Assembly (NCBI GenBank): GCA_030429345.1
Contig: JAUIFJ010000009.1
Location: 1-64,000, forward strand
Reading direction: 5' to 3'
Length of the DNA: 64,000 nucleotides
Source: a bacterium
GTDB lineage: Bacteria > CAIWAD01
The stretch's first letter is position 1; each line of letters opens with the position of its first letter. Below the pieces are notes generated by a model. It did no database searches. It saw only the letters and a list, made by a program, of their open reading frames with translations, and was not told where the DNA came from. This document shows, in pieces, positions 22,751-63,645 of this stretch. Made by a program: the position numbers and the translations under genes.

Positions 22751-23113
22751 ACGTTCCTCCTCTTGCCGCACTGCGCGGCGTTTGAATGTGGGTTCTCGTT
22801 TCGTTCTATCTAACAAGCCGGGTACGATCGGGCAGTTTTTGCCGCGCTTTGTCACCCGACGGACCGCCCAGCTTGCCATGGCAAAGCTTCGGTCCACCTC
22901 ATGCTCTGTTCAATGCAATTTTACTGCCGAAGTCTACAGGATCCTTCCAGGATCCACACTCTATCGGCATTCCAACCCGCCATCTTCCATCAAACCGCCC
23001 GCCGACTTCTACAATCAAGCTTCGGAACCACCCACCAGGCATTCCAGAAACTCTATCCACCTGACACGAGAGTTTTCCGCAGGAAAACTCCAAAGTGCGC
23101 GCTTGCGCGCACG
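22751..23113. other. 363-bp intergenic region
   Basis: Lies between the start of the CBM gene and the stop of the porV gene. It presumably holds the CBM-gene promoter; I see no convincing -35/-10 pair or coding frame. It includes a short direct repeat AGGATCC-TTCC-AGGATCC near 22938-22955, and two hairpins listed separately at its right end. Confidence 0.5.
23070..23112 (-). terminator. Double hairpin directly after porV (end of the TonB/ABC operon)
   Basis: Immediately after the porV stop the minus strand reads GTGCGCGC-AA-GCGCGCAC-TTT, a perfect 8-bp GC stem, then GAGTTTTCC-TGC-GGAAAACTC, a perfect 9-bp stem. The first could terminate; the U-tract is short, so the pair may instead protect the 3' end. 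Confidence 0.55.
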
Positions 23114-24133
23114 CTACCAGGCGAAACGCAGGCTGTAGCGTACGACGCTTTCCAGCCGTCCGAAATCCTGCCACGAGGCGTCAATATACAGTTTCCCCGC
23201 GCTGGCAAGCGGCAGATGCAGGCCAGCGCCAAGGGTCGCGCCGCCTTCCTGATCCTTCAGGAACAGCTGGTGCCAGCCGCCCCGGACGAAGAAGCGGTCA
23301 CGAAAACCATACTCGGATCCCAGCGAAATGGATTCCGAATTGTCGACCGGATGCGAGGCGTCGGCGGAGAGCAACAGGCTGTGCAGGGGGTTGTCGAAGG
23401 CATACATCGACACACCGATGCGGAAGGTCACCGGCAGGCTCCAGGAGAGCACATCCAGGTTGGCCGGCACCGCCGGATTGTCGCCGCCCTGGTTCGGGTT
23501 CAGGTCGTGTCCCACCAGCAGGTCGGTGCCCGACATCTCCATTTCCTGGAAAGAATAGTTGAAGATGCCCATGCCCAGCACCATGCCGTTGAAATTGGTG
23601 CGGAAGCGCGTTCCCACGTCAAAGGCCATGGCGTTGGCCTTTTCGTGCCAGATCTTGTTCTCCACGTACTTGCCGGTGAAGCCGATCGAGAAGCGGTCCG
23701 TGAAACGCAGGCTGTAGGTCAGGCCCAGGGCCAGGTCGGAGGCCTGGAAGAATTCCCCGGTGCCTTCCTGATCTTCGAGCGTCGTGACTTCCATCTCGCC
23801 ATAGTCGAGGTAGGTCATCGAGATGCCGACGCTGCTGTCGTCCCCCAGGTGTGTCACGAAAGCCATGTAGTTCAGGTCCGTGTCCGCCAGGTAGTCGTTC
23901 TGGATGAACAGCACCTCGGACTGTTCGAGCACGACCGCGCTGCCAGGGTTCCAGTAGAGGCAGCTGACATCCTCGCCGACGGAGGTGTAGGCGCCGCCCA
24001 TGCCCATGGCGCGGCTGCCGACGCCGATGCCCAGGAAGGGCGCCGCGGTCGTTCCCACGCGCGTGATCGAACTCGCCGCGAAAGCCTGTGTGACAAGCAG
24101 GGCCGGCAGAAGCAGGGGAATGAATCGTTTCAT
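23114..24133 (-). CDS. PorV/PorQ-family outer-membrane protein
   Basis: 339 aa with signal peptide ending QAFA. The start of the mature protein, AAPFLGIGVGSRAMGMGGAYTSVGEDVSCLYWNPG, is the diagnostic N-terminus of the PorV/PorQ (UPF0164) barrel family. The rest is a FadL-like barrel ending RYSLRFAW. In Bacteroidota PorV shuttles type IX substrates from the translocon to the attachment complex. Here it is the last gene of an operon with a sorted surface protein and a TonB receptor, so it may be dedicated to them; this is inferred. Confidence 0.88.
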   Translation of the reverse strand: MKRFIPLLLPALLVTQAFAASSITRVGTTAAPFLGIGVGSRAMGMGGAYTSVGEDVSCLYWNPGSAVVLEQSEVLFIQNDYLADTDLNYMAFVTHLGDDSSVGISMTYLDYGEMEVTTLEDQEGTGEFFQASDLALGLTYSLRFTDRFSIGFTGKYVENKIWHEKANAMAFDVGTRFRTNFNGMVLGMGIFNYSFQEMEMSGTDLLVGHDLNPNQGGDNPAVPANLDVLSWSLPVTFRIGVSMYAFDNPLHSLLLSADASHPVDNSESISLGSEYGFRDRFFVRGGWHQLFLKDQEGGATLGAGLHLPLASAGKLYIDASWQDFGRLESVVRYSLRFAW

Positions 24134-24142
24134 GGTCGTCTC

Positions 24143-27100
24143 CTACTTGATCAGCGCGAACTTGCCGATCTTCTCGCCGGCCTGGCTCTCGACATGGTAG
24201 ATGTAGACACCGTAGGCCACGTCCAGGCCCTCCTTGCTCTTCAGGTTCCAGTCCAGCGTCCCGTCCCACAGGGGCGCGTCGTGATCCAGGGTCTGCACCA
24301 GCTCGCCGCGGATGGTGTAGATGCGCACCGTCGCCGTCGGCGGCATGTGCGTGAACTGGATCTTTCGCGCGCCGCGGTTGCCCTTGATCGGCGTCGGCTC
24401 CCAGGTGGCGCTGGCCACATAGGGATTGGGAACGACCTTGATCGCGTCCAGCCCGCTGGCGGCGGCCTGGCGGTCGTAGCTCGGCGCCTGCGTCGTATAC
24501 GCGAAGCGGTCGGCCGCGCTGAAGGGCTTCCGTGTCACGGCGGTGTAGGCATCCCCTGCCATGGGCAGGCTCATGGAGGTGGTATCGTAGGGCTGGCTGA
24601 TCTGGAACATCCAGGTCAGGTCATGGGCCGCGCCGCTCGTCGCGCCGGCCCCGTCCTCGCGGACCAGGATCGCGTCGCGCGTATCGAAGGGCACGGTTGG
24701 ATCACGGCGCAGGGCGGGATTGCCCTCGTTGAGCTTGGCGTTGTAGATCCAGAAATCCAGCTCCACGGGATTCTCCGGATCCGTGACCTCGTAGATCCGG
24801 TAGTTGGTGGTGATCGGGTCGACAAGGCGGTTCAGGGTCTGCGTGAGACTCTGATCGAACCAGCTGTCAGGCCCCTGGCAGACCGCCCCTTCTCCCGCCG
24901 CGACGAACTCCATCTTGTAGTCGCGGGGCTGGACGCTGCCGTTGATCTGCCGCAGGGAAGGCGAGAAGTCCAGCAAAGCCAATGGGCGCAGGCCCCAGGG
25001 AATGATGTTCTCCGCCGACTGCTCGGACCAGTAGGACAGGTCCGGATTGGCCACGAGCCGCCAGTCGTTGCGGAAGACCGGCCGTACGCCATCCACGACC
25101 GGATGGTAGTTGCTGCTCGTCGTCGCGTAGCCCGTCAGGTCCATCACCAGCTGCTTGTGCACCAGGTTGTGGAAATAGGTGAAGAGCACGTCGACGACAT
25201 CGTCATCGGCCAGGGTATTGAGGAAGCTCGGCCGGTAGATCACGCGGCCGGCGTCGAAGTCGAAACTGAACTCGCCCTCGGCGTCCAGGGTGTCGCCCGT
25301 GTCCAGGCGGATCCAGATCGAGAGCGGCTCATTCGTATCCAGCCGCACGGCGCTTAAGCCTTCCGGCAGGACGCCGGGATGGCTGAGCATCTGCTGGGGA
25401 GTGTCCTTGTTGATGATGAAGGACTCGCTGACCGGCTCCTGGTTCTCGCGGCTCATCGTCCAGGCGAAGGCCGGCACGTGGATCTCGCTGAGCACGGCCC
25501 GCGTGGAGTCGAAGGGAATCGAGTCGATGACCGCGTCGTAGACCTGATCCGTCGGGTTCCAGACGAAATGCGTGTCCGGCACCCAAGAGAGGTACTCCCA
25601 GCCGAGCACATCCTTCAGGCGCCCCGTCGTGTCCGCGGCCAGGCTGATCTCGTAGCGCGCCCCGTCCACCAGCTGGCTCTCGTCGACGACTTCCAGCGAC
25701 AGGCTGCCGGTGGCCGTGCCGGCAAGGTGCTCGGCCTCCTCCATCACCAGGCCCGGCGTATACCCGGAGGCCGGCACACCGGCCTGGATGTAGACCGTGT
25801 TCAGGTCGAGCGTCACGCGCCCCGCCTCGTCGATGCTGGCCTGCTTGGCGCACTCGGCGGGAAGGAAGCCGGCGACGGCGTCTCCCCGGTCGTAGGAGGT
25901 GACGGCGTAGAAGTAGTTCTGGCCGTTGACCACCGTGGTATCGGTCCAGCTGTGGACCAGGCCCGTGTTGCTGCCCAGGTAGTACTGTGTGCCATTCAGC
26001 GGCAGCTCGAAGAAGCCCTCGACCTCGTTGATCAGGTCGAACTGCTCCGTGGGCGCGAAGCCGCTGGCCGTGCCGTGTCCGTCGGTGATGTTGTAGGTGT
26101 CCAGGAAGCCGGCGTCCGTCGCGCGGTAGATGCGGTAGCCCTCGAAATCCCGCAGGCCGCTGATGCGGTCGACGCTGTGCTCGGCGGCGTCGTCCCAGTA
26201 GAGCGTGACCTGGCCGTCGCCGGCCACCGCCTGCACCGTCGGCTTGGCGGGGGGCTGAATGAAGTTGTAGTTCTCGTTGTAGATCGTCCGGACCGTGGCC
26301 AGGTTGTTGTAGATGTCCTCTTCGGACTCGCCGAAGACCACGGCCAGGCTGATGCGCTGTGTCTCACCGCGACGCAGCGGGAAGTAGCCGCTGCCGTAGA
26401 GGAAGTCCACGTCGGCCGGCTGGCCCGCCGTCGAATCGAACTCGCCCGGAATCATGCGGTTCCAGATGTCGAAGTCGTTGCGTGAGCTGAATTCCGGGAA
26501 GGTGAACTCGTTGAAGCTGGTCAGGCCGATCTGGTCGCTTTCGGTGATGTCCAGCGCGTCGAAATGCGGCTCGCCGGGGCTGGGGACGCCGTCGCCCTCG
26601 CCGGCATCGCCGGTGGCCGGCTGGCCGTCGCCGCCGACATCGTCGTTCTCGATGTCCCAGTCGCCGTCGTTGTCCACGCCATCGTCGCGGCGCTCGTCGA
26701 CCAGCGGGTCCCAGTTGAGCACGACTCCCGCGCCGATCTCGCCCTCGCTCACTCCGAGCTGCGTCCAGTCCACGTAGACGACGCCCTCGTAGGCCGGGCT
26801 CTCGTCGATCACGCCGTTGAAGTTGTCGTCGATCAGGTTGGTCGGATCCTCGGCGACCATCTTGCCGTCGTAGATCTCGATCTCCAGGTCGCGCCAGGTC
26901 AATACCAGTGTATCACCGGAAGCAGGTACCTGAACGATCGAGCGCGGATAGAAGGGATCATTGTAGTTGATGGCGATCACCGACTCGCCGGCAGACAGCG
27001 GCCGCGGCGTCAGCATCTCGTCGAGCACGGCCTCCGTGAGACGGGGCGCGGCGTCTCCCTGGTTCGAATCGCCGTCGTTGTCGATCCAGTCCGTGTTGTT

Positions 27101-28117
27101 GCCCGGACTTTCCAGGAAGGCATAGCCGACGACGCCCACGTTGCGCACGCCGGGATGCACCGGCACCCAGCCCGCCTCGCCGCGGTCGTCGTTGTCGCTG
27201 GTGAAGGTGAACTCCTCGTCCAGGTCGAAGGTGTTGATGTCGTCGCCCGTGTCGCCGTTGCCGCCGACCAGCGTGCCGCAGACCATGCCGAAGCAGATCT
27301 TGTCATAATCGATGTCGCTGGTGTTTGTGATGTCATACAACCAGAAGACCACGTCCTCCGCCAGCACGTGCGACCACTGGAAGCCGCGCACGCTCATCTT
27401 CAGGCCCAGGCCGCCATGCGTCGTGTCGTCCTCGAAGGGCTGGATCAGTCGCACCAGGGCGCTGTCCGGGTCGTCGGGAAAATGCTCGAGCCACAGGTCC
27501 TCGTCCACCGAGTCGCGATAGGCCATTTCCTTGGTCATGAACTCCATGTCGCGGCTGTCGTCGACCCAGAAGTAGGCCTCCTGGTCCGCGTTGAGCACGT
27601 CGCGGCCGAAGTAGCCGTTCCAGCTGCCGGGCCAGCCCTTGTCGGGCCAGACCGTGGGCCAGGAGAAAGGCTGGTGGGACATGGCGATCAGGTTCGTGTC
27701 CGGGGCGGCGAAGCCGGGCAGCGGCATGAAGGTCCAGAACTCGCTGGGGTCCGCCGGATTGACCTCGTCGCGGCCGCGCGCCGGACTCTGTGTGACAGCG
27801 ACGCTGAGCACCTCGCGCTGCAGCAGGGGATTGAAGTACTCGGTGCCCACCAGCACACTGATGTCGCCGATGTACTCGTCCCCGGTGCCTCGCGGCCACT
27901 CGAAGGAGAACTCGTTGCCCACGCGGCCGACCAGGCCCGTGTTGTAGAAGGTGGTGCGCACCAGGTTGCCGCTGAGCGTGTTCTTGCGCTTCTCCAGCGG
28001 ATCCGCCCAGACGTCGTCGTACCATTCCTGGGCAATGGCCTGCAGCGGCAGCAGCAGGAGCGCTCCCCACAGGGCGCCCTGGGCAAGGGGTCGTGTGCTT
28101 CGTTTCATATGCGGCAT
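24143..28117 (-). CDS. Large sorted surface protein paired with TonB receptor (possible SusD-like role)
   Basis: 1324 aa; ATG 28117 has AAAGGA four bases before it. Signal peptide ending QAIAQ. It contains Asp-rich calcium-binding-like loops (WIDNDGDSNQGD, DDNFNGVIDE, DGVDNDGDWDIENDD), a fibronectin-like segment near residue 620 (AKPTVQAVAGDGQVTLYWDD followed by FEGYRIYRATDAG), and a C-terminal FlgD-like domain, KVVPNPYVASATWE through YGVYIYHVESQAGEKIGKFALIK. It lies 15 bp after the TonB receptor and 9 bp before porV. It is not SusD by sequence; its position suggests that it caps or feeds the receptor. No enzyme motif seen. Confidence 0.8.
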   Translation of the reverse strand: MPHMKRSTRPLAQGALWGALLLLPLQAIAQEWYDDVWADPLEKRKNTLSGNLVRTTFYNTGLVGRVGNEFSFEWPRGTGDEYIGDISVLVGTEYFNPLLQREVLSVAVTQSPARGRDEVNPADPSEFWTFMPLPGFAAPDTNLIAMSHQPFSWPTVWPDKGWPGSWNGYFGRDVLNADQEAYFWVDDSRDMEFMTKEMAYRDSVDEDLWLEHFPDDPDSALVRLIQPFEDDTTHGGLGLKMSVRGFQWSHVLAEDVVFWLYDITNTSDIDYDKICFGMVCGTLVGGNGDTGDDINTFDLDEEFTFTSDNDDRGEAGWVPVHPGVRNVGVVGYAFLESPGNNTDWIDNDGDSNQGDAAPRLTEAVLDEMLTPRPLSAGESVIAINYNDPFYPRSIVQVPASGDTLVLTWRDLEIEIYDGKMVAEDPTNLIDDNFNGVIDESPAYEGVVYVDWTQLGVSEGEIGAGVVLNWDPLVDERRDDGVDNDGDWDIENDDVGGDGQPATGDAGEGDGVPSPGEPHFDALDITESDQIGLTSFNEFTFPEFSSRNDFDIWNRMIPGEFDSTAGQPADVDFLYGSGYFPLRRGETQRISLAVVFGESEEDIYNNLATVRTIYNENYNFIQPPAKPTVQAVAGDGQVTLYWDDAAEHSVDRISGLRDFEGYRIYRATDAGFLDTYNITDGHGTASGFAPTEQFDLINEVEGFFELPLNGTQYYLGSNTGLVHSWTDTTVVNGQNYFYAVTSYDRGDAVAGFLPAECAKQASIDEAGRVTLDLNTVYIQAGVPASGYTPGLVMEEAEHLAGTATGSLSLEVVDESQLVDGARYEISLAADTTGRLKDVLGWEYLSWVPDTHFVWNPTDQVYDAVIDSIPFDSTRAVLSEIHVPAFAWTMSRENQEPVSESFIINKDTPQQMLSHPGVLPEGLSAVRLDTNEPLSIWIRLDTGDTLDAEGEFSFDFDAGRVIYRPSFLNTLADDDVVDVLFTYFHNLVHKQLVMDLTGYATTSSNYHPVVDGVRPVFRNDWRLVANPDLSYWSEQSAENIIPWGLRPLALLDFSPSLRQINGSVQPRDYKMEFVAAGEGAVCQGPDSWFDQSLTQTLNRLVDPITTNYRIYEVTDPENPVELDFWIYNAKLNEGNPALRRDPTVPFDTRDAILVREDGAGATSGAAHDLTWMFQISQPYDTTSMSLPMAGDAYTAVTRKPFSAADRFAYTTQAPSYDRQAAASGLDAIKVVPNPYVASATWEPTPIKGNRGARKIQFTHMPPTATVRIYTIRGELVQTLDHDAPLWDGTLDWNLKSKEGLDVAYGVYIYHVESQAGEKIGKFALIK

Positions 28118-28132
28118 TGAATCCTTTCAGCC

Positions 28133-31057
28133 CTAGAAGCTGAATTGAAATCCTACGATGACTTCGCGCGGACGCGAGTAGTTGGTCGGTGTGATGAACT
28201 GCTCGGCGAAGGTGCTTTCCCAGTCCAGGTTGTAGCCCGCGCGGCCCGTGCGCGCGAAGACGTTGTTCTCGTTCAGGCGGTCGAAGAGGTTCTTGACCTG
28301 GAAGGTCAGCCGGATCCGTTGCCCGCCCGTCCAGCGCTCTAGGTTCAGCCAGCCGTTGAGGTCCATGTTCATGTAGGTCGGCTTGCGTCCGCCGTTCTCG
28401 AGCAGGCCGACGACAATGTCGTCGCTGGCGGGAGTCAGAGTATACGGCAGGCCGCTCCCGTAGGTCCCCAGCAGTCCCATGCCCCAGAGATCCTGGTTCT
28501 GGTAGCGGGCGCTGAGGTTGAGCGTGTGACGCCGGTCCCAGTCCAGGGGCACCAGGTACTTGTTGACCTCGCCTCCGCCCTCCAGGGCGTTCTTGGCGGC
28601 GTCGGCGTTGCTGGCGTTGGCCTTGGCGATCTGCCAGGTGTAGTCGACGCCGGCGCTGAAGCCGCCGCCGAAGTTCTGGTCCAGGGTCACGGCGACTCCC
28701 TGCACCGTACCGAAGTCGCGGTTGGTGAAGATGTAGTACGTGTTCTCCCCGCGCATGGTGATCTTGCGGTCGGAACTGACCAGGTCGCGGATGTCACGGC
28801 TGTAGATGCTGACATCCAGCGAGGCGCTCTCGCCGATCTGCTGCTGCAGGCCGATCTCGTACTGCACCGTGCGCTCGACCTTCAGGTCCGGGTTGCCCAT
28901 GAGCGTATACTGTCCCGTCCACTCGAAGTCCGGGTTGCGGTAGAGCTGTTCGAAGCTGGGCCGCTGGAAGAAATGGCCGTAGCTGAAATGGATCACGCCG
29001 GTGTCGGTGATCGGGTAGGCCACGGCGATGCGCGGACTGAACTGGTACTTGATGGTCGTGTCTACGATGCGCTCGTCCGTCAGGTCGGTCAGATCGTAGG
29101 GCAGGTGCCAGTTGGCGTCGAAGACATCCAGCCGCACGCCCACGTTCAGAGTGATGTCCTGGAACTCCATCTTGTCCTGCAGGTACATGGCGCCTTCCCA
29201 GGGATAGCGCGTATAGATGTCACTGTTCGCGCCCTGGGGTTCGACGATGTTGTTGCCGTCGAAAGAGACGACACGGCGATCGTAGTCCATGACGTGCTGG
29301 CGGGCAATGAACCCTGTCTTGACCAGGTGGATCTTGCCCATCTGCCGCGTCAGGTCGAGCTTGAACTGCCAGGTGCTGGTCCTGCGATAGAAGTGCTCGT
29401 TCTCCGTGCCGCCGATATTCGCCGTGCCCACGTATACGGCGTCGTCATCGTAGGTGCCGCTGTTCCAGTTGATGCCGCCGAAATCGTAGTAGTAGAATCC
29501 GCTGCGCGTGACATCTTCCGTGTTCCGGTAGCGCGGATCCATGATGTCGTCGTAGAGCTTGTGGTTGTAGGTGCTGAGCACGTTGGAGGCGCTGGCGTCG
29601 AGGAAGGTGTTGTCGCCGAAGACCTTGTTCCATTTCAGGCTGACGTTCTGCTGGCGGCTGTAGCGGTTGAGCCGCCCGTCCGGCGTGTAGCGCCAGGCTT
29701 CGGCGTACTCGCGGTAGGAGCGCTCGCTGACGATGTAGTTCATGCGGAACTTGCTGGTCGGCGTGTGCTCCCAGGTCAGCTTGAACTGGCCGCTGCGCTT
29801 GAGCTCCGAATTCATGCGGACGTTCTCGGCGCCGTCCTTGTCGCCGCTGGAGCGCTCGTAGAGCTCCTGCGAACGCTCGATGGCGATCTGTCCGAACTCA
29901 CGCCAGGCCGCCCGGTCCTCGTCGGTCTGGGGCGGATAATTGTAGGTCCCGATGTACTCGTCGAAGAGCAGCTGCTCCAGATACTCGTCGAAGGCGAAGA
30001 TGTAGTACTCGTCCTCGTCCACTTCCAGCTCGCCGATGCCCAGCAGCGTCTCGGTGTTGAAGACGCGCGACTCGTTGCCGGTCACGGGGTGCTGGATCAC
30101 GAAGTAGCTTTCCTGGGGCGAGAAGAGATCGACTCCCTCGTACCAGCCCTCGTTGGCGAAATAGCGGCCGGTGCCGCTGAAGCTCAGCGAGGGAACCCCC
30201 GGGATCGGGCCGCTCAGCGAGAACTCCAGGTTGCGCAGGTTGAGCGGGTCCAGCTCGTCGATGTTCATGAACTGCTCGGTGTGATTCGAGAAGTAGTCCC
30301 CCGAATACATGCTGACGCTGCCCTCGAGCTTCTCGCCGCCGTCCTTCGTCACCGTGTTGACCACGCCGCTCATCGCCTGGCCGTACTCGGCGTTGAAGGT
30401 GCCGCTGATCACCTGCAGCTCCTGCACCATCGAGACCTGCACGTCGACGCCGCGGCCGCCGTCGTATACATCCGTCACCGGAATGCCGTCGACCAGGTAG
30501 AGCACCTCGCCGCTTCGGCCGCCGCGGAAGTGGCCGTCGACGACGCCGGCCTGCACCTGGACCACCTCGTTCAGTTCGGTCACCGGCATGCTGGACAGCT
30601 CCTCGCTGCCCACGTAGCTCGCGCTGAAGGTCTGGTCCACCTGCACCAGCGGGCGCTCGGCAGTGATCGTGATCACCTCGCCCTCGATGGCGCTGGTCTG
30701 CATCACGACATCGTGCCGGCTGGTCAGATCGACGCTGACCACCACCTGCTCGACGAAGGTTCTCGAATAGCCCACCGAACTGAACTCGAGCACATAGATG
30801 CCCGGCGAGATGTTCGAAAGGATGTAATCCCCTTCGAAGTCGGAGGCCGCGCCGCGCCGCGTGTTGTAGGGCGCGAGATCGGCAGGAGTGGCGGTCTCCA
30901 GCACCAGGTTGGAAGGCGTCTCGAGCAGGATCACGTTGACGCCGGGCAGCGGCTCGCCGCTCGTGTCCGTGATCGTTCCGGTGATCTTGCCGGTGATGCC
31001 CGCCTGGGCGGCCGCGGCCAGGCCCAGCAGCAGGGCCAGAAGGGTTCTGTTTCTCAT
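28133..31057 (-). CDS. TonB-dependent receptor with N-terminal carboxypeptidase-regulatory-like domain
   Basis: 974 aa from the ATG at 31057, which overlaps the msmX stop; the track ORF starts too early. Signal peptide to about residue 20; CarboxypepD_reg domain about 22-110 (GKITGTITDTSGEPLPGVNV...); plug domain about 125-260 with YLVDGIPVTDVYDGG and VQELQVISGTFNAEYGQAMSGVVN; a 22-strand-type barrel to the terminal GFQFSF. It imports a bulky ligand across the outer membrane with TonB energy. Its operon partners (MalEF, MalG, MsmX) point to oligosaccharides, probably alpha-glucans, as ligand; the link is contextual. Confidence 0.93.
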   Translation of the reverse strand: MRNRTLLALLLGLAAAAQAGITGKITGTITDTSGEPLPGVNVILLETPSNLVLETATPADLAPYNTRRGAASDFEGDYILSNISPGIYVLEFSSVGYSRTFVEQVVVSVDLTSRHDVVMQTSAIEGEVITITAERPLVQVDQTFSASYVGSEELSSMPVTELNEVVQVQAGVVDGHFRGGRSGEVLYLVDGIPVTDVYDGGRGVDVQVSMVQELQVISGTFNAEYGQAMSGVVNTVTKDGGEKLEGSVSMYSGDYFSNHTEQFMNIDELDPLNLRNLEFSLSGPIPGVPSLSFSGTGRYFANEGWYEGVDLFSPQESYFVIQHPVTGNESRVFNTETLLGIGELEVDEDEYYIFAFDEYLEQLLFDEYIGTYNYPPQTDEDRAAWREFGQIAIERSQELYERSSGDKDGAENVRMNSELKRSGQFKLTWEHTPTSKFRMNYIVSERSYREYAEAWRYTPDGRLNRYSRQQNVSLKWNKVFGDNTFLDASASNVLSTYNHKLYDDIMDPRYRNTEDVTRSGFYYYDFGGINWNSGTYDDDAVYVGTANIGGTENEHFYRRTSTWQFKLDLTRQMGKIHLVKTGFIARQHVMDYDRRVVSFDGNNIVEPQGANSDIYTRYPWEGAMYLQDKMEFQDITLNVGVRLDVFDANWHLPYDLTDLTDERIVDTTIKYQFSPRIAVAYPITDTGVIHFSYGHFFQRPSFEQLYRNPDFEWTGQYTLMGNPDLKVERTVQYEIGLQQQIGESASLDVSIYSRDIRDLVSSDRKITMRGENTYYIFTNRDFGTVQGVAVTLDQNFGGGFSAGVDYTWQIAKANASNADAAKNALEGGGEVNKYLVPLDWDRRHTLNLSARYQNQDLWGMGLLGTYGSGLPYTLTPASDDIVVGLLENGGRKPTYMNMDLNGWLNLERWTGGQRIRLTFQVKNLFDRLNENNVFARTGRAGYNLDWESTFAEQFITPTNYSRPREVIVGFQFSF

Positions 31058-32148
31058 GCTTCCGCATTCCCCGTTGTTTTCGTCTCTTCCGTCAGCAGGC
31101 GCGCGCCCCCTTCGCCGGGTGCGAAGAAATGCCAGCTGCTGCTGCGGGCGTAGAGCGTGACCGCTTCGCCCGGCCGGCCGGGGAAGTCCGCGGACAGGCG
31201 CGCCACGCCCGTCTGCGTTCCCAGCCTGAAGTAGGCCATGGTCTCGTGGCCCATGTGTTCCACCACTTCCAGTTCCGCCTCGCCCAGGCAAGCGCCGCCC
31301 GGCTGGACCTGCAGGTCCTCGGGGCGGATGCCGAGCACGGCCGGCCCTTCCGGCAGGCTCTCGTCGGCAGGGCAGGCGATGCCCTCGCAGCTGAAGCGCC
31401 CGCGCACCAGGCTTCCCTCGAAGAAGTTCATTGCCGGGCTGCCGATGAAGCCGGCGACGAAGCGGTTGACCGGGCTGTCGTACAGATTCATCGGCGAATC
31501 GACCTGCTGGATCACGCCGTCCTTCATTACCACGATGCGGTCGCCCAGGGTCATCGCCTCCACCTGGTCGTGTGTCACATAGACCATCGTCGTCTTCAGG
31601 CGCTTGTGCAGGCGGGCGATCTCCGTGCGCATCTGCACGCGCAGCTTGGCGTCCAGGTTCGAGAGCGGCTCGTCGAAGAGGAAGACCTTCGGATCACGAA
31701 CGATCGCCCGTCCCAGGGCGATGCGCTGCCGCTGGCCGCCGCTCAACTCGCGCGGCCGGCGATCGAGCAGGTGCTCGATGCTCAGCGAGCGGGCCGCTTC
31801 CGTGATCCGCCGCTCGATCTCGTCCTTCGGCATGCGCCGCAGCTTGAGGCCGAAGGCCAGGTTCTCGCGGTTCGACATGTGCGGGTAGAGGGCGTAGTTC
31901 TGGAAGACCATGGCGATGTCGCGGTCGGCGGGGGCCATCTCGTTGACCACCGTGCCGTCGATCTCGATGGAGCCCTCGCTGATCTCTTCCAGCCCGGCGA
32001 TCATCCGCAGGGTGGTCGTCTTGCCGCAGCCGGAAGGGCCGACGAGCACGACGAACTCGCCCTCGCGGATCTCCAGGTTGGCCTGGTTGACGGCGCGGAA
32101 GCCGTTGGGGTAGACCTTGTCCAGGTCGCTCAACCGCAGGAAAGACAT
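31054..32148 (-). CDS. Sugar ABC transporter ATPase, MsmX/MalK/UgpC type
   Basis: 364 aa. Walker A GPSGCGKTT (about 37-45), Q-loop FQNYALYPHM, signature LSGGQRQR (about 134), Walker B VFLFDEPLSNLDAK, H-loop VTHDQVEAMT, and a C-terminal OB/TOBE domain (about 235-364) with GIRPEDLQV. This is the CUT1-family ATPase that powers oligosaccharide importers. It follows malG by one base and overlaps the TonB receptor start (ATGA). Confidence 0.95.
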   Translation of the reverse strand: MSFLRLSDLDKVYPNGFRAVNQANLEIREGEFVVLVGPSGCGKTTTLRMIAGLEEISEGSIEIDGTVVNEMAPADRDIAMVFQNYALYPHMSNRENLAFGLKLRRMPKDEIERRITEAARSLSIEHLLDRRPRELSGGQRQRIALGRAIVRDPKVFLFDEPLSNLDAKLRVQMRTEIARLHKRLKTTMVYVTHDQVEAMTLGDRIVVMKDGVIQQVDSPMNLYDSPVNRFVAGFIGSPAMNFFEGSLVRGRFSCEGIACPADESLPEGPAVLGIRPEDLQVQPGGACLGEAELEVVEHMGHETMAYFRLGTQTGVARLSADFPGRPGEAVTLYARSSSWHFFAPGEGGARLLTEETKTTGNAEA

Positions 32149-32149
32149 G

Positions 32150-32980
32150 CTACTCCTTGACGCTGCCCAGGGTCAGGCCGGACACCAGGTACCGGCTCAA
32201 CGAGACGAAGACGATGACGACGGGAATGCTGACCAGGATCGAGGCGGCGGCGTAGAGCCCCCACTCCGTCGACATGCTGGCCTGGAAGCTCTTCAACCCC
32301 AGCGGCAGGGTGAACATTTCCCGCTCCTGCAGCACCTGGGCGGCAACGATGTACTCCGACCAGGCCGTCATGAAACTGAAAAGGGCCGTGATCACCAGGC
32401 CCGGCAGGGCCAGGGGAAGGATCACGAGCCGGAAGGCCTGGAAGCGGCTGCAGCCGTCGATGCGGGCCGCCTCCTCCAGGCTCGGCGGAATCGTGTCGTA
32501 GAAGCCCTTCATCTGCCACACGCAGAAGGGCAGGGCCGTCGCCGTGTAGAAGATCATCAGGCCGATGAAGGTGTTGACCAGGTGCAGCTTGGCGATCAGG
32601 ATGTAGAGCGGCAGCAGCAGCATGGTCGCCGGGAACATCTGAGTGGTCAGGATGGCCAGCATGCTGAACTCGCGGCCGACGAAGCGGAAGCGGCTGAAGG
32701 CGTATCCGCCCACCGAAGCGAGCACGACGCCGGTCAGTGTGACAAGCACGCTGACCAGCAGGCTGTTGCCGAGCCAGGTCAGGAAGGGCTGCTCGGTGAA
32801 GAGCTGCACGTAGGAGGCGATCGTTGCATTGTCCGGAATCAGCGAAAGATCCGTCGAGCGCAGGCGGTTGCCCGGCCGCAGGGAGATCGAGAGCACATTC
32901 AGCACCGGGTAGACGGCGATGCCCACAAAGAGCAGCAGCACCAGGTGCCGCACGGCTGTCAGCAGGCGCGGCTCTCTCAT
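32150..32980 (-). CDS. malG: Sugar ABC transporter permease, MalG type
   Basis: 276 aa from the ATG at 32980, which overlaps the MalE-MalF stop. Six membrane helices; the EAA coupling loop reads EEAARIDGCSRFQAFRLVILPLALP. Ends with the CUT1-typical QRYLVSGLTxGSVKE-like tail (SRYLVSGLTLGSVKE), as in E. coli MalG. It forms the channel with the MalF half of the fusion protein and with MsmX dimers. Confidence 0.94.
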   Translation of the reverse strand: MREPRLLTAVRHLVLLLFVGIAVYPVLNVLSISLRPGNRLRSTDLSLIPDNATIASYVQLFTEQPFLTWLGNSLLVSVLVTLTGVVLASVGGYAFSRFRFVGREFSMLAILTTQMFPATMLLLPLYILIAKLHLVNTFIGLMIFYTATALPFCVWQMKGFYDTIPPSLEEAARIDGCSRFQAFRLVILPLALPGLVITALFSFMTAWSEYIVAAQVLQEREMFTLPLGLKSFQASMSTEWGLYAAASILVSIPVVIVFVSLSRYLVSGLTLGSVKE

Positions 32981-35211
32981 CCGTATACACTCTGTGTGGC
33001 CCGGCCCTTCTTGAGGAAGCCGATGGAGAAGATGGCCAGCAGGAAGAAGATCACCATGCTCAGCGCGGCGCCGTAGCCATAGCGGTAGAGGTTGAAGACC
33101 GCCTTGTAGACATAGGAGACCAGGATGTGCGTCTGGTCGCTGGGTTCGCCGCCATTGGAGACCAGCCAGACCACGTTCAGGTTGTTGAAGGTCCAGATGG
33201 CGCCCAGGGTCACCGCCGGCAGCAGCACGGGCTTGAGCAGCGGCAGCGTGATGCTGAAGAACTGCCTCCCGCGTGAAGCGCCGTCCACACGGGCGGCCTC
33301 GTAGAGTTCCTGCGGAATGCCCTGCATGCCGCCCAGGGCGATCACCATCATGAAGGGAAAGCCGAGCCAGATGTTGGTCAGGATGCAGGCCAGGAAGGCC
33401 TCGAAAGGCGAACCGAGCCAGTTGACCATGGGCATGTTCAGGTACTGGCTGGCGATCAGGTTGATCGCGCCGTACTCGTAGTCGAACATGCCGCGCCAGG
33501 TCAGCGCCGTGATATAGGCCGGAACGGCCCAGGGAATGATCAGCAGCACGCGATAGATGCTCTTGCCGACAACCGGTCCGTTGAGCATCACGGCCAGCAG
33601 CAGGCCCAGCCCCACGTGGAAGACCAGGTTGACCGCCGTCCAGATGACGGTCTTGAAGAGCACGCTGAAGAAGACCGCCTCGCGGAAGACCTCGATGTAG
33701 TTCTGGAAACCGATCACCTGCCAGTCCTGGAAATGCTTCAGGCTCATGTTGGACAGGCTGAGGATCACATTGTAGACGAAGGGAAAGACGATCGTCAGCA
33801 GCAGGACCAGCAGCGAGGGCAGGATGAAGACATAGGCCAGACGGTTGTGCTTCCAGTCCTTGATCATGTGATGCAGGCTGCGCAGGGCCCAGAACAGGCC
33901 CAGGGCCAGCAGCAGTCCGCCCAGTCCCTTGATCAGCGTGGCTCCCAGCCCGGGCTCCAGCTTCTGGTTCATCTTGCGAATGGAGTCGACGGCGTCGCGC
34001 TGCATCTTCGCCGCGGCCTCGGCGGCCGTGATGCTTCCGCCGAGCAGGGCCTGGTAGCTGGGCCGCATGCTGTCCCAGATGGCGCGCAATTCGGCCACCA
34101 CGGGCATGGCGCGGCCGTTGGCCATCTGGATCGCGGAGGCCTTCAGCGTGGGATCCTCCTGCAGCAGGGGATCGTCGAGCAGCTCCTTGCGGCTGGGCAG
34201 GGTCTTCAGGGACCACATGTATACGCGCTGCACCTCGGCGGAGGTCAGGAAGCGCACGAGCTCCATGGCCTTTCCGGCCTGCTCCTCTTTCGCGTTGATG
34301 TTCAGGCTGTAGCCCTTGGTGGCGACCATCGGCCCCATGGGGATTCCCGTCGAGGCGACCACCGGCAGCGGCACCACTTCGGCGTCGATCTCCGCATTCG
34401 CCAGGTAGTCGCCCCAGCTCCAGTCGCCGTTGATGATCATCGCCGCCTGGCCGTTCTTGAAGAGCGCGTCGGCGGTCTCGTAGTCGCAGTTGGCGGGAAT
34501 CACCTTGTGTTCGTTCTGCAGGGAGAGCACGAGTTCATAGGCGGCGACCGCCTCCGGCGTGTCGAGGGCCGGGGTGGTCGATCCTTCCTCGTCGGTGAAG
34601 ATCCAGGAACCGTGTCCGGTCAGGAAGGGGATCACGAAAAAGGGCTCGACGAAGTTCCAGACCAGGCCGTAGCGCTCGCGGCGCCCGTCGCCGTCCTCGT
34701 CGCGGGTCTGCTCGACCGCCAGCCGGACCAGGTCCTCCGTGGTCTGCGGAGTCTCCTGCAGGAGGTTCCGGTTGATTACGAGAGCCAGGTGGTTGCCGAT
34801 GCGGTCTCCGACCTGCAGCAGCTCCTTGGAGGCGGGATCATTGTTGGAAGGCAGGCGCGTCAGGGCCTGAGGCAGGAACTCTTCCTGCCGGCTTTCGTCG
34901 AACCAGGGACTCATGTCCTGCACAATGCCCATGGTCTGGAAACTGCCGAGCACGTCGGAAGGGCCGTAGATCAGTTCAGGTCCCGTGCCGGCCAGGGCCG
35001 CGGCCTGGAAGCCGCTGCGCAGCTCTTCGGTTTCCTTGTAGAGGGCGCGCACCTGGATTCCGGGATGGGCGTGTTCGAAGAGAGCGATCTGGTCGTCCAG
35101 GATCACGCGCTCGGCGGGAGTCATCTGGTGCCAGATGGTCACCATCCGGTCGGACTCCCGCGGGGAGCAGGCCGCCAGCAGCAGCAGGCTGAACAGGAAG
35201 AGGCGTTTCAA
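32977..35211 (-). CDS. MalE-MalF fusion: lipoprotein solute-binding domain joined to ABC permease
   Basis: 744 aa. I start at TTG 35211 (AGGG seven bases before) because it gives a textbook lipoprotein signal, MKRLFLFSLLLLAAC; the track start 54 bp upstream does not. Residues about 20-400 are a MalE-type binding protein (MVTIWHQMTPAERVILDDQI, KNGQAAMIINGDWSWGDYL, GIPMGPMVATKGYSLNINA). From about residue 430 follow seven or so membrane helices of a MalF-type permease with the EAA motif YEAARVDGASRGRQFFSITLPLLKP. In most bacteria these are separate genes; no stop or frameshift separates them here. The fusion tethers binding protein and channel 1:1. Confidence 0.9.
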   Translation of the reverse strand: MKRLFLFSLLLLAACSPRESDRMVTIWHQMTPAERVILDDQIALFEHAHPGIQVRALYKETEELRSGFQAAALAGTGPELIYGPSDVLGSFQTMGIVQDMSPWFDESRQEEFLPQALTRLPSNNDPASKELLQVGDRIGNHLALVINRNLLQETPQTTEDLVRLAVEQTRDEDGDGRRERYGLVWNFVEPFFVIPFLTGHGSWIFTDEEGSTTPALDTPEAVAAYELVLSLQNEHKVIPANCDYETADALFKNGQAAMIINGDWSWGDYLANAEIDAEVVPLPVVASTGIPMGPMVATKGYSLNINAKEEQAGKAMELVRFLTSAEVQRVYMWSLKTLPSRKELLDDPLLQEDPTLKASAIQMANGRAMPVVAELRAIWDSMRPSYQALLGGSITAAEAAAKMQRDAVDSIRKMNQKLEPGLGATLIKGLGGLLLALGLFWALRSLHHMIKDWKHNRLAYVFILPSLLVLLLTIVFPFVYNVILSLSNMSLKHFQDWQVIGFQNYIEVFREAVFFSVLFKTVIWTAVNLVFHVGLGLLLAVMLNGPVVGKSIYRVLLIIPWAVPAYITALTWRGMFDYEYGAINLIASQYLNMPMVNWLGSPFEAFLACILTNIWLGFPFMMVIALGGMQGIPQELYEAARVDGASRGRQFFSITLPLLKPVLLPAVTLGAIWTFNNLNVVWLVSNGGEPSDQTHILVSYVYKAVFNLYRYGYGAALSMVIFFLLAIFSIGFLKKGRATQSVYG

Positions 35212-35380: not shown

Positions 35381-37603
35381 TTAGTCCAGGGTTCGACCTG
35401 CCGGCTGCTCTTGCATTCTTCCGTATGCCTCCTCGAGCAGACTTTCCGGAATGGACAAGGGCTGTTCGCAGCCTGCCTGCGTGCGGCGCAGCAGATCAAG
35501 GAAGAGGCGGTCCCACATGCGGTCGCCCTCGAAGGCGCGCCGGTCCTGGCCGTACCACCAGAACCAGTCGCTGCCCTGGGCCAGCAGCAGGGCGGTCCCG
35601 GCATCCAGGCCCTCCCGCGGTTGCGGCTGTTCCGGACACCGTTCCGCGGCTTCCGCGCAGCGGGCAAGCCACTCCCAGGCCCGGTTCTCCTCCTCCTCGC
35701 CGATCCAGGTCCGCAGATCCCCGCCGATCCAGCTGCCGGCGGGCAGCCAGTTTTCCCGGCTCACCCGCTCCGGCGACACGGCGTCCACGGAAGCCTCGGC
35801 AGCGGCAAGCCGGGCGGCGCGCCACTCGGAGGGCCGCCAGGTCCGAAAGCGCGGATCCTTGGCGAGCAGGCCGTAGAACTCGTCCAGGAAGCGGTCGGCG
35901 TCGTGGTCGCGGCGGTAGAATTCCCAGGCGTTCTCGCCGTCCAGCACCAGGCAGATCGCCTGGCCCGGCTTCTTCCGGCCCAGGGCCAGCAGGCGATTGG
36001 CCAGGTCGACGGCGGCGGCCTCGCCCGGATAGTGCCGGTAGCGCCAGCCCAGCGCGCGGCTGAGCTCCGTGGCCCTGAGCAGAACCATGCATTCGCCCGT
36101 CGGCAGATCGATCCAGACCTCGCCGCGCTCCACTCCCGGCGTGTCCAGGTCAAAGACCGCGTCGCCGGTGGCGGTCCAGGTTGCGCCCAGCATTTCGAGC
36201 ACGGGCAGGTCGATGGCGCCCTCGCCGGGCCAGAAGCCCTCCGTGGCGAATCCGAAGGCCTTGCGGAACTGCTCCCGGCCCAGCTCCACCTGCCGCCTGG
36301 CCCAGTCCGGCCGGCCGAAGCGAGGCAGCTCGTCCTCCGGCTGGCGGGCGCGGGCGGCTTCGGTGCGGTTCAGCAGGGGCAGGATCGGGTGGGCGAAGGG
36401 CGTCGTCGCCAGTTCGACCTGCGGCCCGTGTGACTCGTCACGCGGCGCTCCCAGATCGCGGTGCAGGGGCAGGATCGCCTCCATGAGCAGGCCGCTTTCG
36501 TAGACGAGACGCTCGCGAACCCCGGGCTCCGCCGAAGGAATGCGCCAGCGCCCTTCGGGCAGGGCCTCGACCAGCTCGTGGAAGCCTGTGTGACGTCCCC
36601 CGGGCAGGGGCACGGCCTCGCGCAGCAGGATCGGATCACACCAGGCCAGGGTGAAGGCCGCCAGCAGCAGTTCCGCCTCGGCCGCGTCCGGGGAGTGGCC
36701 GCCGCGAATGCGTGTGACGAGCTCCTCGTACTGCGGGAAACGGGCCAGCAGCTCCGGGGAGATGCTCAGGCAGGACCAGGCCCCTTTCCAGAGACGCTCG
36801 GCCTGCAGGGAATCGGCGGGATCCACCGTGTGCTGCAGCAGCAGGTCGACCCAGGGATCCGTGCGCCCGCCCCAGGTCTCACGAAAGCCCTGCGTGACGC
36901 CTCTTTCCTCGTGATCCAGAAAGGGCACCAGCCGTTCCAGGTAGTGCCGCTGCAGCTGGAAGAGCAGGGTGCCGGAAAAGCTCAGGCAGGCCTGGACCGT
37001 CGGCTGGCGCTGCAGGCGCAGGCCCATGTCGAAGTAGTCCTTGGTCGCGTGCAGGCGCACCCAGGGTCCGAGCAGCTCGTCGCGGACGGGGTCGCCCATG
37101 TAGGGCTGGTGATGCTGCCAGATCAGGACCAGGTTGACGGGCTGCAGCACGGAATCCCCGTCGAGCGGCAGCGTGTCCGGCACTTCGGCTCGTTGCTCGA
37201 GACGGCCGTCGGCGTGTTTCCAGAAAACCGAGTTGCGTCCGCCGTCCCCGGCGACGCTTAGTGCCGGATTGTCCGGGTCCGTGATCCACTGTCCGTCGAC
37301 GATGAACTTGTACTCGTGCAGGCCGCTGTCCAGGGCAAGACGCAAGCGCCAGGCACCCTCGTGCTCTTCCATGGGGAGGGGCGCCGTGCCCCAGCGGCTG
37401 AAGGCGCCGGCCAGCAGGACCTCGCCGGCCCGCGGACGCTCGAGTTCGAAGAGCACGCTGTCCGGGCCTGCGGGTGCAATACGCGCTTCAGCCGGAAGAG
37501 CCGGAAGCGCCAGGAAAAGGCATACGGCAAGTTGCCGGCCAGCACCAGTCAATGTGGATCGTTGCCGATTCCTGAGGTGTGACAGCAGCAGAGGGAGAAT
37601 CAC
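35381..37603 (-). CDS. Secreted GH57-family glycoside hydrolase with CBM48-like N-terminal domain
   Basis: About 740 aa if started at GTG 37603 (AAGGAG upstream); the track start lies inside the neighbouring gene. Signal-like helix LAVCLFLALPALPAEA. Residues about 50-125 form an AMPK/CBM48 module (VLLAGAFSRWGTAPLPMEEH...LHEYKFIVDGQWITDPDN). The GH57 barrel follows: NLVLIWQHHQPYMG (about 163), GFWPGEGAIDLPVLEMLG (about 458, likely nucleophile region) and CLVLDGENAWEFY (about 553). GH57 enzymes hydrolyse or rearrange alpha-1,4/1,6-glucans. It lies 22 bp downstream of the acetyltransferase gene and upstream of the malEF operon. Confidence 0.85.
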   Translation of the reverse strand: MILPLLLSHLRNRQRSTLTGAGRQLAVCLFLALPALPAEARIAPAGPDSVLFELERPRAGEVLLAGAFSRWGTAPLPMEEHEGAWRLRLALDSGLHEYKFIVDGQWITDPDNPALSVAGDGGRNSVFWKHADGRLEQRAEVPDTLPLDGDSVLQPVNLVLIWQHHQPYMGDPVRDELLGPWVRLHATKDYFDMGLRLQRQPTVQACLSFSGTLLFQLQRHYLERLVPFLDHEERGVTQGFRETWGGRTDPWVDLLLQHTVDPADSLQAERLWKGAWSCLSISPELLARFPQYEELVTRIRGGHSPDAAEAELLLAAFTLAWCDPILLREAVPLPGGRHTGFHELVEALPEGRWRIPSAEPGVRERLVYESGLLMEAILPLHRDLGAPRDESHGPQVELATTPFAHPILPLLNRTEAARARQPEDELPRFGRPDWARRQVELGREQFRKAFGFATEGFWPGEGAIDLPVLEMLGATWTATGDAVFDLDTPGVERGEVWIDLPTGECMVLLRATELSRALGWRYRHYPGEAAAVDLANRLLALGRKKPGQAICLVLDGENAWEFYRRDHDADRFLDEFYGLLAKDPRFRTWRPSEWRAARLAAAEASVDAVSPERVSRENWLPAGSWIGGDLRTWIGEEEENRAWEWLARCAEAAERCPEQPQPREGLDAGTALLLAQGSDWFWWYGQDRRAFEGDRMWDRLFLDLLRRTQAGCEQPLSIPESLLEEAYGRMQEQPAGRTLD

Positions 37604-37625
37604 CGGCACCCACTCCTTCCGACAG

Positions 37626-38855
37626 CTAGAAATCGATTCCGTAGCTCGGTCGCGGCAGGCGCAGGCACTGGTCCAGTTCCCGGACCAGATCATGCCCGGC
37701 CTCGAAGGCGTCAGTGACACACAGCCCGCTTGCCGGCTGCACGCCCAGCCAGAGGCGCGTGAAGGAGGCCACGGTGGCCGAGAGCAGCGGCAGGCCTTCC
37801 CTGTGCCCTTGCTCGATGCTCGAGGCCTGGCCCAGGCGGACCGTATACGCTCCGCCGATGCCGCGCCAGGCCCGGCCTTCCTCCAGGTACTCCGTGATCG
37901 GATCCTCCAGCTGCAGGTTGAAGGAGGGCCCCTCTACCGGCAGGCGAAGCGCCGTGATGCAGCCCGGCAGGTCGCAGATGCGCGCCTGCCAGTAGGAGAG
38001 CGCCTCGTGCCGCGTGGCCTTGTCGCTCTTGCTCGTCAGGGATCGCATGCGAAAGGGGCGCTTCAGCAGCTGCTGCAGCTGGATGTCCGGGTGTTCCACA
38101 AGGCCTATGGAAAGGATCTGGTCCGACAGGCTGCGGATCAGTCCCAACAGCTCCAGGTAGTGCTCGCGGTTCTGCCAGGCCATGGCCAGCACTCGATAGG
38201 GCCCCTCCTCCCCCTTCGCGCGACACCAGATGAAATGGCTCAGTTCGCCCTGTTCGTTCTCGAAGCCCAGACCGAAACAGCTTGTGCTCCAGGCCATTTC
38301 CGCGTGGTAAAAGCACTCGTCATCAATGTTGATCGAGCCGTGACCGCGGTGGCGTCGGGCGAGGCAGTCCATCACTCGCCTGTAATCCTCTTTGCCCAGC
38401 CGCACCGGCGTGCGACGCCGGACACGCAGGCTAAGTTGCGCCGGGTCGAAATAGCGGATCACCTCGTAGCCGCCCAGGCCGTAGCCCAGCTGGTCGTAGA
38501 AGCCTGAATCGAAAATGCCCAGGCCGCTGACCTGGGCGCCCGCCTCGGCCTCTTCGGCGACCAGGCGGGCGGTCAGCTGGCGCGCCAGCTTGAGGCGCCG
38601 CGCCACACGGCTGGTGGTCACCGCGACAACGGCAGAGAATCGAAGCATCTGGTCCAGGTAGCGCAAGTCGCCGCTGCGAGCGCTGGCCAGACATTCCGCC
38701 TCGCCCTTCAGTTCCGCCACAAGATTGCGTCCTCCGGAAAGGAAGAGATCCAGGGTCTTCTCTTCCTCGCCGGGATCGATCCAGCCGCACTCTTTCCAGA
38801 TGCGGCGGGTCGCCTCGCGGTCTTGTTCCACATGATAGGGGCGCATAAGGGCCAT
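37626..38855 (-). CDS. Eis-like GNAT N-acetyltransferase with SCP2-like C-terminus
   Basis: 409 aa. The tripartite Eis architecture is suggested by an N-terminal GNAT module (MRPYHVEQDREATRRIWKEC; AVTTSRVARRLKLARQLTARLVAEEAEAG as acetyl-CoA loop; LGIFDSGFYDQLGYGLGGYE), a second GNAT-like region, and a C-terminal sterol-carrier-like domain ending DAFEAGHDLVREL. The family acetylates amines such as aminoglycosides or polyamines; the substrate here is unknown. Its link to glucan use is only positional. Confidence 0.82.
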   Translation of the reverse strand: MALMRPYHVEQDREATRRIWKECGWIDPGEEEKTLDLFLSGGRNLVAELKGEAECLASARSGDLRYLDQMLRFSAVVAVTTSRVARRLKLARQLTARLVAEEAEAGAQVSGLGIFDSGFYDQLGYGLGGYEVIRYFDPAQLSLRVRRRTPVRLGKEDYRRVMDCLARRHRGHGSINIDDECFYHAEMAWSTSCFGLGFENEQGELSHFIWCRAKGEEGPYRVLAMAWQNREHYLELLGLIRSLSDQILSIGLVEHPDIQLQQLLKRPFRMRSLTSKSDKATRHEALSYWQARICDLPGCITALRLPVEGPSFNLQLEDPITEYLEEGRAWRGIGGAYTVRLGQASSIEQGHREGLPLLSATVASFTRLWLGVQPASGLCVTDAFEAGHDLVRELDQCLRLPRPSYGIDF

Positions 38856-39023
38856 GGTGACTCCAGGTGTGTCGGTTCGCGCGTTCAGTATCCAAGAGGA
38901 TAGGAAAAGAGCGGAGGCTCCTGCAGCGGGGACTGTGGCCTCCTGAAGTGTTTGCGCTCAGAGTTGCATAGTTCGTTTTTGCAAACAATTATGAATGCCC
39001 AGCCGAATCAGCCAGAAGGAAGC

Positions 39024-39443
39024 ATGCAGCGGATCCAAAGATTACGAATCCAGCATCGGGGGTTGACAGATCGCATGGAGCGGATCCGTCAGATCCTGCT
39101 GACTAAGGACCCCTGCCAGCAAGAAGAGGCACTCCGAACACTTCTGGTTCGCTTTTCAGAGGAGCTCGCGAAACACCTGCTCGTCGATGAGCCGGAGATC
39201 TACAGGGATCTGGCCAACAGAATGGATCCTGCCCTTCAGCGGAACCTGCTGCGCTACTCGAACGAGCTGAATCTGCTGGCTTGCGCCTACAAGGAATACG
39301 AGACGACCTGGCAGCTGCCGGAGTGCCTGCACGACCAGGTCGAACTCTTCCGGCGCGAGACCCTGATCCTCCTGGACGCCATTCAGCGTCGCATCCGATA
39401 CGAGGAGGAAGTCCTTTTTCCTGCCTTGTCCGAAAGCACTTGA
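39024..39443 (+). CDS. Hemerythrin-like protein with altered iron ligands
   Basis: 139 aa from the ATG at 39024 (AGAAGGAAGC upstream; the track start has no ribosome site). Four-helix pattern of the hemerythrin HHE family: QHRGLTDRM, KHLLVDEPEIYRDL, IRYEEEVLFPAL. The last helix has Tyr where the HExxxxFP His is expected, and the second carries H-x4-E, so a full di-iron site is doubtful. A paralogue follows 94 bp later. Confidence 0.65.
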   Translation: MQRIQRLRIQHRGLTDRMERIRQILLTKDPCQQEEALRTLLVRFSEELAKHLLVDEPEIYRDLANRMDPALQRNLLRYSNELNLLACAYKEYETTWQLPECLHDQVELFRRETLILLDAIQRRIRYEEEVLFPALSEST

Positions 39444-39537
39444 GCCTTTTCCTGGACCCTGCGCGGAAATCCTATTGCCGGGGAGCCGATAGCCGGAACA
39501 GTGCAGGAGGCCATTCAAACGAGGTGGGGGTGTATTC

Positions 39538-39954
39538 ATGCCGGATCTGAAGCTGCTGAAGAGCCAACACCAGGAACTGGCGGATCTATGCAAGCGGATC
39601 CAGGCCCAACTGGATCTCAGCGAACCGCAGGGCGACTACATCTGCGCCCTGCTCTCCACCCTGGCGATCAAGCTGCAGAATCACCTGGCCCTGGAGGACA
39701 GCGGCCTCTACCCCTTCCTCAAGCAACATGCCGGTCCAAAGGGACGTCGGCTGCAGGAATCGCTGAATGAAGAAATGGCCTGTCTTCGAAAGGCTGTCGA
39801 GGAGTACCTGGATCAATGGCACAGCAAGGAGCGAATTGCCGGGGATCTGGATGGTTTCCGGCAGGCGTCCAGCTTCATCCTTGAAGCCCTGGTCCGTCGG
39901 ATCGAACACGAAGCGATGGAGGTCTTCCCGTTGATCGAGAACAAGCAGGGATAA
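39538..39954 (+). CDS. Hemerythrin HHE-domain protein
   Basis: 138 aa, paralogue of the gene just upstream. Ligand-like residues are more complete: SQHQELADLC, NHLALEDSGLYPFL and IEHEAMEVFPLIE, i.e. H...H-x3/4-E...H-x3-E. Bacterial HHE proteins bind a di-iron centre and sense or handle O2, NO or iron. GGTGGGGGTG precedes the ATG. Ends at a strong bidirectional terminator. Confidence 0.8.
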   Translation: MPDLKLLKSQHQELADLCKRIQAQLDLSEPQGDYICALLSTLAIKLQNHLALEDSGLYPFLKQHAGPKGRRLQESLNEEMACLRKAVEEYLDQWHSKERIAGDLDGFRQASSFILEALVRRIEHEAMEVFPLIENKQG

Positions 39955-52747: not shown

Positions 52748-52846
52748 GTTCATTCCTCTCGCGCGTTGGCGTTCAATACGGGCAAAAGCCCGATGCTGTC
52801 GGTGGGGTTTGCCGGAACAGGAAAGATCGCAAGAAAGCTACTGAGG

Positions 52847-62885: not shown

Positions 62886-63645
62886 CCTCGCAGCAGGGAG
62901 CCACGAAGGTATCACCGGCGGGCCTGGCCTCCTCGCCGTCCACGACCACGCGGGGCGTGATGCCCGAGAAGCGTTCCGGTTCGATGCCCGCGCGCTGGTA
63001 TACGGTCACCAGGCCCATGCAGAGAACGGCCACCGCGCCGATCACGGGCAGGTGGCGACGCAGGGGCCCCGCCAGCTTCTGGATGCCGACCCCAAGGGCC
63101 AGCATCACGGGAAGCGTGCCGGTCCAGAAGGCGCCCATCACGAGCGCTCCCTGCCAGGGACTGCCGGTGCCGGCGGCGGTGATCACGAAGGCGTAGAGCC
63201 AGCCGCAGGGCAGCAGGGTGCTGGCCAGGCCGAGAGCCAGCGCGCGGAAGAGCGGCGGTTTCTCCCGCATGCGGGCGAAGAGCTTCTGGAACCAGCGTCC
63301 GCCGGCGCTGCCCATCAGGCCCCTCGGCAGAAGGGTGATGCCGAAACGTGCGACAATCACTCCCAGTCCCCAGAGCACCATCAGCGAACCGGCGAGGATC
63401 GCCGAGAAACGCATCACGCCCGCCGCCTCGCCGGCGATGTTGATGGCGTGGCCGGCGATTCCGGCCAGCGCGCCGAGTCCGGTGTAGGACAGCAGCCGCC
63501 CCAGGCTGTAGAAGGCGTGGCCGAGCCATTGCTTCTCCCGGCCTCCCTCGGCGGCATAGAACACCAGCAGCGGACCGCACATGCCCGCGCAGTGGGGACT
63601 TCCGATCAGGCTTGCGCCCAGGACGGTCGCCAGCAGGGCAGACAT
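62878..63645 (-). CDS. TauE/SafE-like (UreH domain) membrane protein of the cbb3 assembly cluster
   Basis: 255 aa from the ATG at 63645, which shares a base with the fixH stop (TGATG). Six membrane helices; the first carries GSPHCAGMCGPLLVFYA, and helix 4 STLLPCGWLYAFVITA, giving two intramembrane Cys motifs as in DsbD-related and SafE proteins found in ccoGHIS clusters. The tail includes VVVDGEEA and ends PCCEDE. Probably a metal- or thiol-handling transporter for oxidase maturation. Confidence 0.85.
   Translation of the reverse strand: MSALLATVLGASLIGSPHCAGMCGPLLVFYAAEGGREKQWLGHAFYSLGRLLSYTGLGALAGIAGHAINIAGEAAGVMRFSAILAGSLMVLWGLGVIVARFGITLLPRGLMGSAGGRWFQKLFARMREKPPLFRALALGLASTLLPCGWLYAFVITAAGTGSPWQGALVMGAFWTGTLPVMLALGVGIQKLAGPLRRHLPVIGAVAVLCMGLVTVYQRAGIEPERFSGITPRVVVDGEEARPAGDTFVAPCCEDE

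Follow-up and report, generated by a model that had tools for sequence, protein, structure and literature searches.

Does the frame at positions 32977-35211 of the window (the whole 64,000-nucleotide stretch of DNA analysed here) encode a single subunit in which a MalE-type solute-binding protein (SBP) is joined to a MalF-type permease, and, if so, what would such a subunit import and how exceptional is it? The sequence-only reading of this locus had described an uninterrupted 744-codon frame containing a lipoprotein signal, a full MalE-type domain and a MalF-type permease with its EAA loop, all of which are borne out below; its assessment that such a fusion is unusual in the CUT1 class has to be abandoned.

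Anatomy of the fused chain

The frame, located on the minus strand, comprises 744 codons and a stop without any internal stop, and its 744-aa product was recognized as a MalE-MalF fusion from the open reading frame, Pfam, NCBIfam and full-length homologues. Three Pfam families match one and the same chain: SBP_bac_8 over residues 42-358 (E 1e-23), SBP_bac_1 over residues 39-328 and BPD_transp_1 over residues 533-733 (E 3e-17); the pairing of SBP_bac_1 with BPD_transp_1, which the sequence-only reading had proposed as a check, is thus present. The top NCBIfam models were MalE over residues 49-404 and MalF over residues 499-737 (score 164.7 versus a cut-off of 392), both below their curated cut-offs. 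The domain order, with MalE at the N-terminus and MalF behind it, is the same in the frame, the Pfam matches and the structural model.

The N-terminal signal (residues 1-16; 35164-35211, minus strand) reads LFSLLLLAAC followed by SPRES and contains the lipobox LLLAAC, with Ser at +2, and lipoboxes also occur in relatives; from this pattern, the Cys at residue 15 is predicted to be lipidated. The TTG start that had been proposed for this frame is supported though not proven: the N-termini of three relatives (MKKLL, MKRLL and MKRLC in L008-L010) lie at the matching position, and CAGGG occurs approximately 7 bases upstream of the TTG.

The AlphaFold2 model of the fusion, for which a 50-sequence alignment was the input, was confident (mean pLDDT 89.7, pTM 0.87). 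The MalE-type domain (residues 21-417; 33961-35151, minus strand), which is supported by Pfam, by the sequence match to PDB 6ffl and by Foldseek, ends in the model in a helix at residues 396-414, and a loop of approximately 7 residues then leads to a linker helix, here termed TM0 (residues 422-455; 33847-33948, minus strand). The MalF-type permease (33001-33843, minus strand; Pfam, NCBIfam and the model) has six helices, at residues 457-485, 512-544, 550-575, 602-630, 647-675 and 711-736, and its EAA loop, YEAARVDGASRGRQFFSITLPLLKP, was read from the sequence at residues ~637-661, with the letters YEAARVDGAS...ITLP. According to the model, TM0 would take the chain from the periplasm to the cytoplasm ahead of the permease; this extra crossing is needed because the binding domain is periplasmic and the N-terminus of a six-helix CUT1 permease is cytoplasmic.

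Neighbouring genes, substrate and tethering

The gene of a MalG-type permease (32150-32977, minus strand; Pfam BPD_transp_1, best NCBIfam model MalG, 76-79% in same-family genomes) overlaps the stop of the fusion by one base, and beside it lies a MalK/UgpC-type ATPase with an OB_MalK plus TOBE_2 regulatory domain (31054-32148, minus strand; Pfam and NCBIfam). With the SBP_bac_1/8 binding half and the MalF-like permease, these genes uphold the earlier placement of the system in the CUT1 class. Pfam also identifies, all on the minus strand, a TonB-dependent receptor that is a putative outer-membrane maltodextrin channel (28133-31066), a GH57 glycosidase with an AMPK1_CBM glycogen/starch-binding domain (35381-37630), a GH13 alpha-amylase with a CBM48-like domain and a T9SS sorting tail (48860-52753), and a CBM20 starch-binding protein, likewise with a T9SS sorting tail (21314-22897). 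The genome has a GC content of 65%, and the run at 21314-31066, in which the TonB receptor and the T9SS-tailed CBM20 protein are accompanied by a PorV-like protein and a 1324-aa protein without a Pfam match, is a set for type IX secretion and starch binding. Elsewhere in the window, two hemerythrin-domain proteins are encoded in tandem at 38952-39954, and a heavy-metal P-type ATPase adjoins a DsbD_2 membrane protein at 60462-63738, a pair that we take to resemble cbb3 oxidase maturation gene sets.

In the sequence search, the best match of the binding half was 6ffl (residues 21-416, E 1e-97), whose PDB title names the MalE domain of Bdellovibrio bacteriovorus and which has maltotriose bound; Foldseek gave a TM-score of 0.91 on the 6ffl length with 41% identity. 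Fifteen positions of MBP, which we take to be ligand contacts, were compared with the fusion: D65, E153, P154, W230, M330, W340 and R344 are kept, Y155 is replaced by Phe, and D14, K15, W62, A63, R66, E111 and Y341 are changed, and therefore the ligand length or preference of the fusion may differ. Because of the likeness to 6ffl, the partly kept pocket, the MalG and MalK partners, the starch-related neighbours and the fact that no SBP_bac_8 protein other than the fusion was found in the genome (98% complete), we consider it highly probable that the fusion serves as both binding protein and MalF in a maltodextrin-type CUT1 importer, composed of MalEF, MalG and two MalK and homologous to the MalE-MalF of B. 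bacteriovorus. A fused CUT1 subunit with a different sugar as its substrate, such as trehalose or a glycerol-phosphate-like compound, is unlikely; such a substrate would accord with the altered pocket residues and with the ATPase, which exceeds the cut-off only of the UgpC-subfamily model among the NCBIfam matches listed, but the best structural match binds maltotriose, the best-scoring models for the three parts are MalE, MalF and MalG (though all below cut-off), and the GH57, GH13 and CBM20 neighbours indicate alpha-glucans, with GH13- or GH57-like genes also lying beside approximately 40 fused relatives.

For this probable maltodextrin importer, we infer a scheme that covers its substrate and stoichiometry, the succession of steps and the anchoring at two points, and in which each permease has a binding domain of its own (1:1). 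The secreted GH13 amylase would cut extracellular starch, aided by the CBM20 protein, and the TonB receptor would let the resulting oligosaccharides cross the outer membrane; the MalE domain, held by its tether, would then close on them and pass them to the MalEF/MalG channel, with MalK powering transport. The binding domain would be anchored twice, at its N-terminus by the lipid in the lineage of the window and at its C-terminus by TM0 through the loop of approximately 7 residues, so that it would open and close in place on its own permease rather than belong to a free pool.

Cleavage of the fusion in the periplasm would instead release an ordinary free, lipid-anchored binding protein, and the lipobox, redundant if TM0 serves as the anchor, would then have a role. 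We regard this as very unlikely, since the loop between the helix at 396-414 and TM0 is so short and the length of the linker is near-constant over phyla, which together suggest a functional tether: from the end of the binding domain to the first permease helix there are 44 positions in most phyla, including the window protein, 45 in Bdellovibrionota and 54-58 in Cloacimonadota. Moreover, a simple pattern detects a lipobox in about two thirds of the fused relatives, and the Bdellovibrionota fusions have ordinary cleavable-type signals without a lipobox; the lipid is therefore not essential to the fusion design.

Fused and separate relatives

Three separate assemblies of the same family (G001, G002 and G003) contain the full-length uninterrupted frame with 66-69% identity over approximately 740 residues. 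A homologue scan of 84,980 species, with one genome per species, was used to keep the best 80 named loci, and binding domain and permease share one open frame in 66 of these and occupy two frames in the other 14, a ratio that holds among the best matches and is not an unbiased frequency of fusion. Two of the loci, L022 and L043, probably lie in the genomes G003 and G002, respectively. By their record titles, the fused loci belong to Planctomycetota, Fidelibacterota/Neomarinimicrobiota, Ignavibacteriota, Bdellovibrionota, Cloacimonadota and Calditrichota, and the fused Planctomycetota include the isolates Adhaeretor mobilis and Bythopirellula polymerisocia. The linker segment is hydrophobic in 75 of 76 fused rows. 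Although a genuine two-gene malE, malF layout exists elsewhere (L112, L113 and L114), the sequencing or assembly error that the sequence-only reading had named as a possible refutation, in which a stop and a start between the two genes were erased, is hardly credible, given the same frame in these three independent assemblies and in the 66 loci, isolates included, and given a linker that keeps 44 positions and encodes a membrane helix missing from the separate Ignavibacteriota permeases.

Separate malE/malF relatives have permeases that are up to 59% identical. In Bacillota/Atribacterota, the separate permeases of L095-L097 and L099 have at the N-terminus, ahead of the core helices, an additional hydrophobic helix that resembles TM0 and is possibly a pre-adaptation to fusion.

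Trees from the permease, the binding domain and their concatenation agree in their main groups. In these trees, the window protein and its family adjoin Planctomycetota sequences, outside the Bdellovibrionota group; the Bdellovibrionota fusions share a clade with the window protein (support 93/94, not starred), which also includes separate Ignavibacteriota forms, and the outside branches are separate forms from Eisenbacteria, Krumholzibacteria and others. Fused and separate forms are intermixed in Ignavibacteriota, where four loci from Ignavibacteriota/Bacteroidota MAGs (L052, L057, L063 and L072) have separate malE and malF, lack TM0 and are candidates for fissions or for a young fusion. The AU test rejected the grouping of all fused rows as one clade (p-AU 2.7e-6), and fusion or fission therefore occurred more than once. 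Repeated fusion and one fusion with later fission both fit, because counts cannot separate gain from loss. When aligned with the linkers of the remaining fused groups, the Ignavibacteriota linker stays in register, and a single fusion followed by fissions is therefore still compatible with the data; column shuffles overstate this signal, as a shared hydrophobic helix alone yields some of it, and the linker similarity leans to one fusion with later fissions without proving it.

The proposal that separate relatives keep binding protein and permease in-frame with a single stop was rejected. All 14 separate loci from the best-80 scan are in-frame, seven of them with just one intervening stop, but five independently found separate loci (L011, L012, L013, L017 and L018) have frame offsets of 1 or 2; the in-frame pattern is most likely an ascertainment effect, with the search ranking joined in-frame matches higher.

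Nine further single-frame fusions of SBP_bac_1/8 with BPD_transp_1 (L100-L104, L111 and L117-L119) were found in 94 sampled genomes from other families, the permease match of L102 being just below the Pfam cut-off. Their binding halves are only ~20-28% like that of the window protein, and in the permease tree they lie apart from the main family, several on long branches; on this sequence evidence, they are probably independent fusions. Taking these results together, we incline, with some reservation, to the view that MalE-MalF fusions make up a large family that has gone mostly unrecognised and spans at least six phyla, in which fusion and fission recur and a conserved linker helix holds each transporter to a single binding domain. 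If true, this family would provide a natural comparative set on the benefit of a free pool of binding protein.

Comparison with known transporters

The Bdellovibrio MalE-MalF, the source of 6ffl, is presumably the transporter published in 2019. It resembles the window protein in having a single N-terminal MalE on MalF and a binding half with 41% identity, and the tree of the family includes Bdellovibrionota fusions; the Bdellovibrionota relatives differ in their Sec/signal-peptidase-I-like signals, where the window protein has a lipobox, and in a linker of 45 rather than 44 positions. The kind of fusion described here has thus already been described and is common in several phyla. The sequence-only reading, which took it to be unusual in CUT1, had named a multitude of known CUT1 fusions of this sort as grounds for refutation, and its view gives way to that publication and to the predominance of fused frames among the best named loci. 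By the title of their paper, which PMC7756565 and PMC9045158 cite, Licht et al. (2019, Res Microbiol 170:1-12) characterised a maltose/maltodextrin ABC transporter in which MalE is fused to MalF, and the review PMC7756565 calls MalE fused to MalF transport-competent; our search for CUT1 fusions in the library available found no further paper.

The one-binding-domain-per-transporter maltodextrin design, so far described from Bdellovibrio, is accordingly a common form in several largely uncultured phyla. With the closely related separate forms, one could test directly whether transport requires MalE to dissociate and what purpose a free pool of binding protein serves.

E. coli MalFGK2-E (2r6g and others) shares with the system of the window the MalE fold, the MalF core helices and EAA loop, MalG, and MalK with its regulatory domain, whereas its MalE is a separate protein. 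The P2 loop of E. coli MalF has 181 residues versus 27 in the fusion; separate relatives of the fusion also have only 27-30 residues there, and the idea that tethering replaces the P2 loop was rejected.

In the glutamine and osmolyte type I importers GlnPQ and OpuA, substrate-binding domains are fused to the permeases and there is no free binding protein, a tethering similar to that in the MalE-MalF fusion. These importers use other binding-protein and permease families, and their permeases are homodimeric, giving two or more binding domains per transporter, whereas the fusion system would have one, because it has one MalF.
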